Shown in pieces: positions 20,202-24,174 of a stretch of 34,190 nucleotides of DNA. The translations under genes were made by a program, and so were the position numbers. The notes beneath the pieces are model-generated. The model ran no database searches. It had not been told where the DNA came from and was given only the letters and a program-made list of their open reading frames with translations. The stretch comes from Planctomycetaceae bacterium (lineage in GTDB: Bacteria > Planctomycetota > Planctomycetia > Pirellulales > PALSA-1355): assembly GCA_003153375.1 (NCBI GenBank), contig PLYM01000227.1:1-34190 (forward strand), in the 5' to 3' direction. The number at the start of each line of letters is the position of its first letter. The stretch's first letter is position 1.

Positions 20202-20522
20202 TTGGATATATCGCTTGGTCAAACCGCCCGAGACTTGCGAGAGTCGTTGGGGCTGACGCAACGTGCGGCAGCCACAGCACTGGGCATTTCGTTCGTCCAC
20301 TTGTGCAACATCGAAAAGAATCGTGCCGCCCCTTCCCAAGCCCTGATCGACAAGTTCCGCGAAGTTTGGGGGGTTGATCTTTACGTACTAGCTTGGTGTA
20401 CGTTCGGCAATTCTTCAAAATTGCCGAAGCCGCTGCGAAAGGCCGCTGCGGATTTGGAGAAGGGATGGAAGGAACACGTAAAGACCCTGATCGAAAAGCA
20501 TCGCCAGTCGGCGGGTCATTGA
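20202..20522 (+). CDS. XRE/Cro-CI-type helix-turn-helix protein of the retron operon
   Basis: 106 residues. Residues 5-60 form an XRE HTH: LGQTARDLRESLGLTQRAAATALGISFVHLCNIEKNRAAPS, with TQRAAATALGIS as helix-turn and FVHLCNIEKNR as recognition helix. The C-terminal 45 residues are Lys-rich and helical (KPLRKAAADLEKGWKEHVKTLIEKHRQ). It should bind DNA, perhaps the retron promoter or the msDNA. A TTG at 20202 is the only usable start after an in-frame stop at 20190, with AGG at 20191 as a weak binding site. Its TGA overlaps the RT start (TGATG, 20520-20524), so the RT is probably translated by coupling. Confidence 0.85.
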   Translation: MDISLGQTARDLRESLGLTQRAAATALGISFVHLCNIEKNRAAPSQALIDKFREVWGVDLYVLAWCTFGNSSKLPKPLRKAAADLEKGWKEHVKTLIEKHRQSAGH

Positions 20523-21568
20523 TGATCGGTATCCGTCAAGTCAAGCACTTGGTGGCGATTCTTGACACGACGCCGGAAGAACTCAAAGCGGTGCTTGACT
20601 CGCCAGAATCATTCTACGAAGAATTGATTCTGCGCGACCCCAAAAAGCCTGACAAGCAGCGGATCGTCGTTGACGTTCAAGGCACAATGCGTGCCTATCA
20701 GTTGCGGCTTTACAAGCGAGTCTTGCTCCCTAAGCTGGCCCCTTCCATGCACAGCCACGGGGGCGTTAAGAATCGCAGCATAAAGACGAACGCCGAACCG
20801 CACCTTCGCTCCTCGCACGCTTTCAAAACTGATATTTCAAATTATTACCCCAGCATCCATCACTCCCGCATCTATCGCCTATTCACCAACTCGTTTGGTT
20901 GCTCGCCGGATGTTGCTCGCATTTGCACCAGAATATGTACCTATCATCACCACTTGGCGCTCGGGCTCATAACGAGCCCAATCCTAGCTGATCAAATCCT
21001 GCGAAGAGTTGATCGACGAATCGCTGGACTATGCGCAAAGAACCAGCTGGTCTACACGCGATATGTCGATGACATCACAATTTCAGGGCGATACGATCTT
21101 GAGAAAAGCGGCTTCGCTCGCCTCATCGGCGAAATACTTCAGGAGGATGGATTCAAAACCAATCCTGAAAAGAATCTCTTCGGCCTACTCGAACGAGATT
21201 TGACAATTACGAACCTGCGCATGGTTCGTGGCCATCTTGATGTTCGCTTGGAATACGTTGACGAGTTGATTCGCCAGATTGATGACGCCGCGAGCCTAGC
21301 TAGGGGGGATGAATTTGAAGGGCCGTATTACACTCCCGGACAAATTCTCGGACGTGTACGTTTTGTGTGCTGGGTCAATCCCGGGCGTCGTTTCGATTTA
21401 ATTCGCCGATTCCGATCCATTCAATGGCAAGAGGTTCGTGCAAAGGCCAGAGAACGCAAATATGAGGCCGAGAGGAAAACTCTTGAACCCAAAGTTCCTA
21501 AGGCCGTAGCGGACGTGACAACCGAGGTTGGTTTGTATCTACCTGAAACTGAATCCAAGCGTGAATGA
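20522..21568 (+). CDS. Retron-type RNA-directed DNA polymerase
   Basis: 348 residues, typical retron RT size, with no maturase, endonuclease or integrase domain. It would copy the leader RNA into msDNA. Motifs in order: the retron-specific NAxxH as NAEPH (90-94) after GGVKNRSIKT; the first catalytic Asp in FKTDISNYYPSIH (101-113); GLITSPILAD (148-157) in place of PQGSPxSP; the active site YTRYVDDITISG with YVDD at 181-184; and EDGFKTNPEKNLF (208-220). The VTG motif that helps recognise the RNA is not exact: TITNLRMVRGHLDV (228-241) occupies its place. The C-terminal 100 residues are basic and would bind the RNA. The ATG overlaps the HTH stop; the longer frame upstream overlaps the HTH gene and is not needed. 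Confidence 0.92.
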   Translation: MIGIRQVKHLVAILDTTPEELKAVLDSPESFYEELILRDPKKPDKQRIVVDVQGTMRAYQLRLYKRVLLPKLAPSMHSHGGVKNRSIKTNAEPHLRSSHAFKTDISNYYPSIHHSRIYRLFTNSFGCSPDVARICTRICTYHHHLALGLITSPILADQILRRVDRRIAGLCAKNQLVYTRYVDDITISGRYDLEKSGFARLIGEILQEDGFKTNPEKNLFGLLERDLTITNLRMVRGHLDVRLEYVDELIRQIDDAASLARGDEFEGPYYTPGQILGRVRFVCWVNPGRRFDLIRRFRSIQWQEVRAKARERKYEAERKTLEPKVPKAVADVTTEVGLYLPETESKRE

Positions 21569-21690
21569 CCACGCACCCTATCTCTTTCAGCTGGTGATTG
21601 CCGAGCCGAGAACGGCGCTTCGTCAGCAGCAGCCGAACGGTGACCTTGAATGGGAAGCCGACTCCCCTCTGGAAACGATAGTCTATCGAG

Positions 21691-21715
21691 CCGCCGCGCA
21701 CACGGGCGGCGGTTT
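21691..21715 (+). terminator. Possible terminator of the retron operon
   Basis: CCGCCGC (21691-21697) and GCGGCGG (21706-21712) form a perfect 7-bp GC stem with an 8-nt loop followed by TTT, 122 bp after the RT stop. The rest of 21569-21806 shows no gene I can support. Confidence 0.5.
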
Positions 21716-21806
21716 GCATTCCAAAATCGCTCGGCGCCCACAAATCTCTGCCGCCAAAACCCCAGCCCTTTAAACTCCGCCCCAAGTCGTTAAACTAGAA
21801 CAACTT

Positions 21807-21880
21807 GTCCGCGTAGCTCAATTGGATAGAGCGTCGGCCTCCGAAGCCGAAGGTTAGAGGTTCGAGCCCTCTCGCGGATA
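21807..21880 (+). tRNA. tRNA-Arg (anticodon CCG)
   Basis: A full cloverleaf folds. The 7-bp acceptor stem GTCCGCG/CGCGGAT has a G1-U72 wobble at its end. The D-stem is GCTC/GAGC, and the anticodon stem TCGGC/GCCGA has the loop CTCCGAA with CCG at positions 34-36. The T-stem is AGAGG/CCTCT with loop TTCGAGC, and the discriminator is A. CCA is not encoded. It reads CGG arginine codons. A TTAAACT stands about 11 nt upstream of the gene and again 20 bp further up, possibly part of its promoter. Confidence 0.95.
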
Positions 21881-21883
21881 CTG

Positions 21884-21985
21884 AGAGCCTGGGGACAAAA
21901 CGTCCGGGGAGAGGGGGACAGTCCCATTTTTCTCCCAGGGCACCGAAAAATCGGGACAGTCTCCGACGTTTTCTCCCCAGGCTCT
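21884..21985. repeat. Near-perfect 102-nt foldback element after the tRNA
   Basis: The outer arms (21884-21904 and 21965-21985, beginning AGAGCCTGGGGA) are complementary at 20 of 21 positions. Inside, GGAGA (21908-21912) pairs with TCTCC (21960-21964), and TCCCATTTTTC (21922-21932) pairs with GAAAAATCGGGA (21945-21956) with one bulge. The palindrome GGGACAGTCCC is at 21915-21925. This looks like a REP/MITE-type non-autonomous repeat and could also end the tRNA transcript. Confidence 0.75.
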
Positions 21986-22119
21986 GATGGTGACGGCGAG
22001 CGACCATCGGCGAGCACGTGGCGGCGTGCCGAAGTTGGGTGGCCCAGGGTCTGGGCTCGGCTTTTTCTGGCAGCCTGGGATGCGCACTCCGAAGTCCCTC
22101 GGCGGGTGTTTGACAAGCG

Positions 22120-24174
22120 ATGAATGACGAAGTGGTGAGTGTGCCGTTTCCCGAGCCGCCCAGCCGCCCCAAGGCGGTCACCAAAGTTCATCATCCGGCT
22201 GACGTCTCCAAACCGATCAGCAGCCCCCACATCGATCCTCTCGAGGAGCACCATCCCGGCCACATCTCGCCCTGGCCCTGGGTGATGTGCCTGACCGGCG
22301 TCGACTACTTCAGCACGCTCGGCTATCAGCCGTCGATCGCCTTCGAGGCCGCCGGCATGCTGGCCACGGTGGTGCTGGTCATCGTCACGCTGTTCGGCGC
22401 CCTGCCGGTCTATGCGCACGTGGCCAGCGCCTCGCCGCACGGACAAGGCTCGATCGCGATGCTCGAACGGCTGGTGCGCGGCTGGACCGGCAAGGTGCTG
22501 GTGATCGCACTGCTGGGTTTCGCCGCCACCGATTTCGTGATCACCAAGACGCTCTCGGCCGCCGACGCCGCCGAGCACATGCTGCACAACCCGCTCTGGC
22601 AGGATGCCCCGCAGTGGGTGCAAGCATGGACCGAAGATCAACAGCGGCTGGGGCTGACCATGCTGCTGCTGGTCGTCCTGGGCGCCAGCTTCTTGCGCGG
22701 CTTCAAGGAAGTCATCGGACTAGCCGCCGTGATCGTGGGCGTGTACCTGGCGTTGAACCTGGTGGTCATCGGCAGCGCCCTGACGTTCCTGGTGTTTCAC
22801 CCGCAGCACCTGTCCGATTGGGTCAGCAATCTTTCCGAGGGGCGTTGGCACATCGCCGAGCCGGCGCTGCCGGGCACGAGCTGGGGCGTGATCTTCGCGC
22901 TCAGCTTGCTGTATTTTCCCAAGTTGGCGCTGGGACTCAGCGGCTTCGAAACCGGCGTGGCCGTGATGCCGCTGATCAAGGGGAACGCCGACGATGACAA
23001 GCACAACCCCCTCGGCCGCATTCGCAACACCCGCAAGCTGCTGGCCACCGCGGCGATCGTGATGTCGATCTACCTGCTCTGCTCCTCGCTCGTCGTGACG
23101 ACGTTGATTCCCCCCAACGACCTGCGCGAGCCCGGGCCCGCCGCCAACCGCGCCCTGGCCTTTATCGCGCACGGCGAAAGCCCGCATGCCATCAATCCCT
23201 GGCTGTTCGGCGAAGTGTTCGGCACCATCTACGACCTTTCCACGGTCATCATCCTCAGCTTCGCCGGCCTGAGCGCCATGGCCGGTCTGTTGAACCTGGT
23301 GCCGCAGTATCTGCCTCGCTACGGCATGGCTCCCGAATGGGCCCGCGCCGTGCGACCGTTGGTGCTGCTGTTCACGCTGATCAATTTGCTGGTCACCTGG
23401 CTGTTCGATGCCGACGTCGTGGCCCAGGGCGGTGCCTATGCCACGGGCGTGTTGGTGCTGATGTCCAGCGCCTGCGTGGCCACGGTCATCGATCACTGGC
23501 GCGCCGGCAGAGGCGTGTGGATCAAACGCATGCCGTGGTATTTTCTGCTGGTCGCCTGCGTGTTCATCTATACGACGGCGCTCAACATGGTCGAACGGCC
23601 CGACGGCATCAAGATCGCCAGTTGGTTCGTGCTGGCCATCATCGTGGCATCGTTTATTTCGCGCATCCTGCGCAGCACCGAGCTGCGATTCCGCTTTTTC
23701 GAATTCGTCGACCTGGAATCGAAGTTCCTTTGGGATAGTCTCAAGCACTTCGAGTTTCCGGTGCTGGTGCCCCATCGCCCTGGGCGCCGCGGTCTGGAGG
23801 CCAAGGAGGCGCAGATTCGCGACCGCCACCGCCTGGGCGCCGAAGTGCCGATCGTGTTCATCGAGGCCGAACTGGGCGACCCCAGCGAGTTTCACCAGAG
23901 CCCGCTGCTCGAGGTCAAGGACGAAGGCGGCCGCTTCATCATCAGCGTCACGCGCTGCGCCTCGACGGCCCACGCGATTGCCGTGATCGCGCTGGAGTGC
24001 TCCAAGTCAGGCACCCCGCCCGAGATCCATTTCGGCTGGTCCGACGAAAACCCCCTGGCCGCCGCCATCGGCTTCTTCCTGTTTGGCGAAGGCAACGTTC
24101 CCTGGCGCGTGCGAGAACTGCTCTGCAAAGCCGAAGCCGATCCCGACCGTCGCCCCGACGTGTTCATCGGCTGA
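22120..24174 (+). CDS. APC-superfamily amino acid/polyamine-type transporter
   Basis: 684 residues. After a polar N-terminus of about 48 residues come many hydrophobic helices, starting at SPWPWVMCLTGVDYFSTLGYQPSIAFEAAG, whose TGVDYFSTLGY segment resembles the broken first helix of APC transporters. The glycine-rich stretch LALGLSGFETGVAVMPLIKG resembles the helix-6 region. The last 150 residues (after ILRSTELRFRFFEFVD) are soluble and may be regulatory. It probably carries a small organic cation, amino acid or similar solute across the inner membrane; the substrate cannot be told. The ATG gives the longest frame after the foldback repeat and has no strong Shine-Dalgarno. It has no operon partner. 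Confidence 0.8.
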   Translation: MNDEVVSVPFPEPPSRPKAVTKVHHPADVSKPISSPHIDPLEEHHPGHISPWPWVMCLTGVDYFSTLGYQPSIAFEAAGMLATVVLVIVTLFGALPVYAHVASASPHGQGSIAMLERLVRGWTGKVLVIALLGFAATDFVITKTLSAADAAEHMLHNPLWQDAPQWVQAWTEDQQRLGLTMLLLVVLGASFLRGFKEVIGLAAVIVGVYLALNLVVIGSALTFLVFHPQHLSDWVSNLSEGRWHIAEPALPGTSWGVIFALSLLYFPKLALGLSGFETGVAVMPLIKGNADDDKHNPLGRIRNTRKLLATAAIVMSIYLLCSSLVVTTLIPPNDLREPGPAANRALAFIAHGESPHAINPWLFGEVFGTIYDLSTVIILSFAGLSAMAGLLNLVPQYLPRYGMAPEWARAVRPLVLLFTLINLLVTWLFDADVVAQGGAYATGVLVLMSSACVATVIDHWRAGRGVWIKRMPWYFLLVACVFIYTTALNMVERPDGIKIASWFVLAIIVASFISRILRSTELRFRFFEFVDLESKFLWDSLKHFEFPVLVPHRPGRRGLEAKEAQIRDRHRLGAEVPIVFIEAELGDPSEFHQSPLLEVKDEGGRFIISVTRCASTAHAIAVIALECSKSGTPPEIHFGWSDENPLAAAIGFFLFGEGNVPWRVRELLCKAEADPDRRPDVFIG

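Follow-up and report, generated by a model that had tools for sequence, protein, structure and literature searches.

A foldback beside a tRNA-Arg gene of a Planctomycetaceae bacterium is very probably an IS5-type MITE that encloses a REP-like palindrome

The described systems closest to the locus reported here are found among small insertion sequences on the one hand and among palindromes associated with Y1 transposases on the other. Elements of the IS1031 group of the IS5 family prefer TNA as target and make a 3-bp repeat on insertion, according to PMC12016507, which gives for one member, ISLrh, the ends GAACCTGTCTAGTATCT and the target TGA. PMC2516522 likewise mentions three-nucleotide insertion sites for this group. 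TIRYT genes are described in PMC3733652 as having terminal repeats with a GGGGWSAS motif around them, and for the main TIRYT subclass PMC6006769 states that no REP-like sequence was found nearby. PMC3733652 also describes a REP fused to an unrelated stem-loop in P. putida and P. fluorescens and present in many copies; the REP is of a degenerate GTAG-1 type and its partner is left unnamed in that text.

The stretch of DNA analysed here, hereafter the window, is one whole contig of 34,190 bases from an assembly of 6.7 Mb. Between a tRNA-Arg(ccg) gene on the forward strand (21807-21881 by ARAGORN; 21807-21880 for the Rfam tRNA model) and a large open reading frame at 22120-24174 lies a structure that the first-pass annotation had described as a near-perfect foldback. 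The foldback is real: the arm at 21884-21904 agrees with that at 21965-21985 in 20 of 21 positions. No second foldback with arms matching at 18 or more of 21 positions was found anywhere in the window, scanned with gaps of 20-89 bases and with a match demanded at the first four bases. The triplet TGA occurs at 21882-21884 and again at 21985-21987, as expected of left and right copies of a 3-bp target site duplication. Because of this repeat we set the element at 21885-21984 (100 bases), one base inside the originally annotated span at either end.

The element consists of nested parts. A left terminal inverted repeat, GAGCCTGGGGACAAAACGTC (21885-21904, forward strand), pairs at 19 of 20 positions with the right terminal inverted repeat (21965-21984, reverse strand). 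A spacer between left arm and core (21905-21913), of the TCGGAGAA type in relatives, is present on one side only. The nested core (21914-21964) is a REP-like palindrome formed by the inverted pair GGGGACAGTCCCATTTTT..AAAAATCGGGACAGTCTCC, and within it GGGACAGTCCC at 21915-21925 is palindromic except for its central base. Folded as DNA, the 100 bases surpass 200 of 200 dinucleotide shuffles (z -6.06); for RNA folding, with 31 bases of flank included, z is -4.94 and 0 of 200 shuffles do as well. Rfam models searched against the window region matched the tRNA alone. Of 146 genomes of the order, 42 contain a match to the downstream frame, 22120-24174, but the congener G003 has none, and Pfam and NCBIfam gave no match to this frame at 0.001.

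The first-pass annotation assigned such hairpins to families moved in trans and suggested counting their copies. With the 102-base query, three further matching places were found in the source genome: one long copy, whose arms are different yet again complementary, and two 62-bp copies with the arms of the window element and a shortened core. Four genomes of the family were compared, and of the relatives G003 contains at least 46 pieces that match (out of 87 candidates, 40 were scored), G001 contains three, and G002 gave no match to the query. The commoner arm, taken at up to three mismatches, has 47 + 47 matches in G003 and 2 + 4 in the source genome. Control counts with the reversed arm pattern (20 and 29 in G003) were disregarded, since that pattern itself overlaps the repeat. 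Plasmid and phage records gave no match to the element. Copies were then delimited by six arm strings at up to four mismatches, disregarding the flanks; the end base of these strings was picked after inspection of the copies. Among 70 loci examined, 38 copies allowed both ends to be located, five in the source genome and 33 in G003. These dispersed two-armed copies bear out the earlier view of a MITE-like element that is most likely moved in trans.

By length, 16 of the two-armed copies measure 97-100 bp, 15 measure 114-118 bp and 7 measure 50-78 bp. The copies of 114-118 bp carry a third nested hairpin of the ACCATCC..GGATGGT type, seen as ACCATCC-TGC-GGATGGT in the loop of longer copies of G003 (L111, L115-L119); a similar hairpin occurs in a Pirellulales assembly (L230). 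Nine copies in G003 (L020, L025, L031, L111, L118, L125, L142, L189, L191) edge another repeat, beginning TTCGACTTTYGCACTTTTTG, and a repeat of this type also occurs at L029 with no MITE at its edge.

The flanks of the copies carry the signature of insertion. The same 3-mer lies immediately outside both ends in 26 of the 38 copies, compared with 0, 2, 1, 0, 0 and 0 of 38 when the boundaries are displaced by -3, -2, -1, +1, +2 and +3 bases; the direct repeat is missing in the other 12, including two of the five copies of the source genome. TNA is found on both sides of 28 copies, as a direct pair in 26 and as an inverted pair in two, and this preponderance of direct pairs favours a target duplication over a longer palindrome. 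Insertions at stop codons were counted for 12 of 38 copies versus 361 of 2472 control TNA sites, and an apparent preference of this kind was set aside, the control not having been restricted to the dominant TAA/TTA sites.

Furthermore, the left and right arms of the copies vary together. Across the 38 copies, 87.6% of arm positions pair, compared with 72.9% (sd 1.5) when the right arms are dealt anew among the left ones. None of 2000 such shuffles, in which kinship among the copies is ignored, reached the observed value. Pairing was counted ungapped, because an alignment of the copies moved the right arm of the window copy by one column.

The window copy itself belongs to a rarer arm subtype. 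Searched for at up to three mismatches, TNAGAGCCTGGGGACAAAACGTC is present in 8 of the 396 genomes examined from the order, with three copies in the source genome, and arms similar to those of the window element are found in G006, G014, G020 and G036. The 24 fetched loci of this subtype are short elements or single arms: G036 has a 79-bp element between TTA repeats and one single arm, G020 has a diverged 98-bp element between TAA repeats with a core-like interior, and G216, G260 and G269 have single arms. No full-size IS with this arm subtype was seen on reading through the sequences of these 24 loci. Arms of the window type also surround other interiors. In G006 (17 + 13 arms) we observed elements of about 100 bp with a window-type outer arm and another palindromic interior; such elements, with the outer arm of the window copy on one side, are present at L204, L210, L213, L215, L219 and L221-L224 of G006 and at L203 of G014.

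The commonest MITE arm is GAGCCTATCCGAGAACC, and its like is found at the ends of complete IS5-family elements from the same order. Within the source genome, an unpaired arm at L128 adjoins VERTHSWVNRARSLLVRWEKKVASYFGYLHLQSAIVALRTAGVLG, with a stop codon inside the repeat, and the frame upstream of this arm is broken by stops. The remnant matches NF033580 (IS5 family transposase) at positions 221-257 (4.2e-7). Using a 45-aa probe, only this decayed C-terminal piece of an IS5 transposase was found in the source genome, whose assembly is 96.37% complete, and nothing was found in the three other genomes of the family, the copy-rich G003 included. Across the order, the probe has matches in 38 of 396 genomes, the source genome among them. 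Elements of the IS5 family measuring 916-929 bp, with TAA on both sides, occupy 6 of 30 fetched loci (L153, L157, L164, L168, L170, L171), and shorter similar elements are found at L162 (614 bp) and L165 (639 bp). The other 22 loci are cut by a contig end, decayed, or devoid of such ends. The ranking of possible ends favoured those with a 3-bp repeat; four of the 22 (L155, L156, L166, L180) were flagged in this way but not counted, the repeat not being TNA and the ends being unlike.

The ends of the full-size elements read GAGCCTATCCGAGAACCG at L157, GAGCCTATCCGGAAACC at L168 and GAATCTATCCGAAAACC at L171. L157 reproduces the commonest MITE arm exactly over 18 bases at its left end and over 16 at its right; the reading frame of this element shifts ahead of the C-terminus. 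L168 contains a single frame of 289 aa that matches PF13340 and PF01609, and NF033580 at 4e-66, and provides an example of an IS5 transposase for ends of the GAGCCTATCC type. The resemblance to the IS1031 group, as represented by ISLrh in PMC12016507, comprises the TNA target, the 3-bp direct repeat and short terminal inverted repeats beginning GA(A/G)CCT; the PF13340/PF01609 protein of the partner element L168 is a further likeness to IS1031-group elements of the IS5 family and their MITEs. Unlike full-size IS5/IS1031 elements, the window element is about 100 bp long, gene-less and equipped with a nested REP-like core. Taken together, the TNA duplications, the IS5-like ends and the IS5 transposase in the partner elements indicate that the element is most likely a MITE of an IS5-family, IS1031-like element, placement in the IS1031 group being based on target and ends rather than on a transposase tree.

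In the interior, the inverted pair GGGGACWGTCCC-N-ATTTTGC is the most conserved part of the copies, and the core can be written as the inverted pair GGGACWGTCCC-NATTTT. Cores lacking recognisable arms occur in G001 (L019, L023), in the Pirellulales assembly at L230 and in a Planctomycetota assembly (L231 and L245), as judged by a scan of some 87 bases to each side for six arms at up to five mismatches; the same scan recovers the arms at 3 of 3 copies in G003. Since the core exists apart from the arms and the arms surround other interiors, arms and core are separable. In genomes of named organisms, the strict core pattern gave 0 loci and a relaxed pattern gave 20, distributed over 16 genomes of several phyla.

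These core loci bear on the proposal, made in the first-pass annotation, that a TnpA-REP (RAYT/TIRYT) transposase moves the hairpin as a REP/REPIN-type element. Y1_Tnp (Pfam) is present in 16 of 16 core-holding genomes versus 5 of 14 controls; a home-made Y1 profile found nothing within the 20 core loci, and the Y1 genes that the Pfam search detected lie elsewhere in each of the 16 genomes. We fetched 30 Y1 loci of 63 matches, and at least one exact GGGACWGTCCC is present at 8 of the 30, the expectation from shuffled sequence being 0 to 0.01 per locus. At 6 of the 30, in other phyla, the Y1 gene has the motif on either flank: upstream at 64-473 bases from the Y1 domain, downstream at 46-277, with one more copy 893 bases downstream. 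In this respect the element resembles the TIRYT/RAYT palindromes (compare the GGGGWSAS repeats of PMC3733652 and PMC6006769), and the core is, we infer, of a Y1/RAYT-associated kind, bearing in mind that short palindromes can arise repeatedly. Unlike the palindromes treated there, this one sits inside DDE-type ends, and the Y1 genes of the source family are not closely flanked by the core motif: an exact copy is near 1 of 23 Y1 loci in four genomes (L060), about 1.3 kb from the frame, whose Y1 match is weak (23.6 bits). The Y1 loci L016 and L017 of the source genome have no GGGACAGTCCC at up to one mismatch within 4 kb, and 21 further loci of the family contain the exact motif in one, the same L060. 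At L017:247 and 848 (contig C137 of the source genome) a Y1_Tnp gene is flanked by inverted GCCCAGGGCAACG repeats, which are unlike the window element. Neither GTAG, the tag beside the stem in REPs of the GTAG class, nor CTAC occurs in 21861-22010. What endures of the proposal is the company that the motif keeps with TnpA-REP-type genes in other phyla; given ends that resemble IS5 elements and are bordered by 3-bp TNA duplications, mobilisation of this element by a TnpA-REP transposase is very unlikely.

The neighbouring genes invite two other readings of the hairpin. Upstream of the tRNA, at 20202-21568, are an HTH gene and a reverse transcriptase gene, whose best PADLOC matches are HTH_VI (1.6e-12) and RT_VI (6.2e-53), likely together a type VI retron. 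Retron RNAs contain long hairpins, and these genes end 317 bases upstream of the element, which might then be the msr-msd RNA part of the retron. The chance of this is close to nil, as the copies dispersed elsewhere with no neighbouring reverse transcriptase, together with the 3-bp duplications, show that insertion is independent of the retron. The second reading takes the element, which lies directly 3' of the tRNA, for an intrinsic terminator that evolved together with the tRNA-Arg gene, a role also considered in the first-pass annotation. Two weak terminator-like matches do fall inside the element, among three in the region 21500-22300, where 0.9 are expected. However, the large stem is followed by TGATGGTGACGG rather than by a T run, and downstream of the element, at 22041-22057, lies the third match, a hairpin that does have a T run and where the tRNA-Arg transcript may end. 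At none of four tRNA-Arg(CCG) loci in three relatives (L092-L095) does the element occur within the 500 bases 3' of the gene; one of these loci, L094, has one single arm at five mismatches and no core, a match at chance level. The element is therefore not a conserved terminator. None of six other copies scanned (L010-L012, L018, L020, L031) has a tRNA in its locus. With dispersed copies elsewhere and no counterpart beside the tRNA genes of relatives, the element is neither unique nor conserved with the tRNA, and a terminator that evolved with the gene is highly improbable. The hairpin may affect transcripts, and nothing here suggests selection for such an effect.

The element is thus very probably an IS5-type (IS1031-like) MITE with a nested REP-like palindrome, rather than a REP whose ends are acted on by TnpA-REP. 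A full-size IS would supply the DDE transposase that recognises its 20-bp ends, moves the element in trans into TNA sites and duplicates the 3-bp target. The window copy, moved by such an IS5-type transposase, would have landed in TGA directly 3' of the tRNA-Arg gene, and the foldback would stand beside the tRNA because the element inserted there. A separate REP-like palindrome, the GGGACWGTCCC-NATTTT inverted pair, is carried inside: because the core also occurs apart from the arms and its motif flanks Y1 genes, the element looks composite. As in the Pseudomonas case of PMC3733652, there are many copies of a REP-type unit joined to a second palindrome; the difference here is that the outer part is IS5-like and bordered by TNA duplications. 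A literature search for nested MITE/REP arrangements matched nothing, one search term being unmatchable, and we do not claim that they are absent from print; a search on the exact motif returned only papers looking unrelated by title. A further idea, which we hold to be possible if doubtful, is that the element is a hybrid substrate of two unrelated transposases, with DDE ends that move the whole unit and a Y1-type nested palindrome that can enter or leave it.

The mechanism is most likely ordinary and the build somewhat unusual. A strong hairpin next to a tRNA could readily be annotated as a terminator or a REP; this one is explained here as an insertion. The matched change of arms among subfamilies bears on how such palindromes keep both ends alike. 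The nested core offers a testable case of a REP-like palindrome on an unrelated, DDE-type mobile element. If the hybrid reading were true, a DDE-mobilised carrier would be the vehicle by which REP-like palindromes spread in genomes that do not have such palindromes beside their own Y1 genes.
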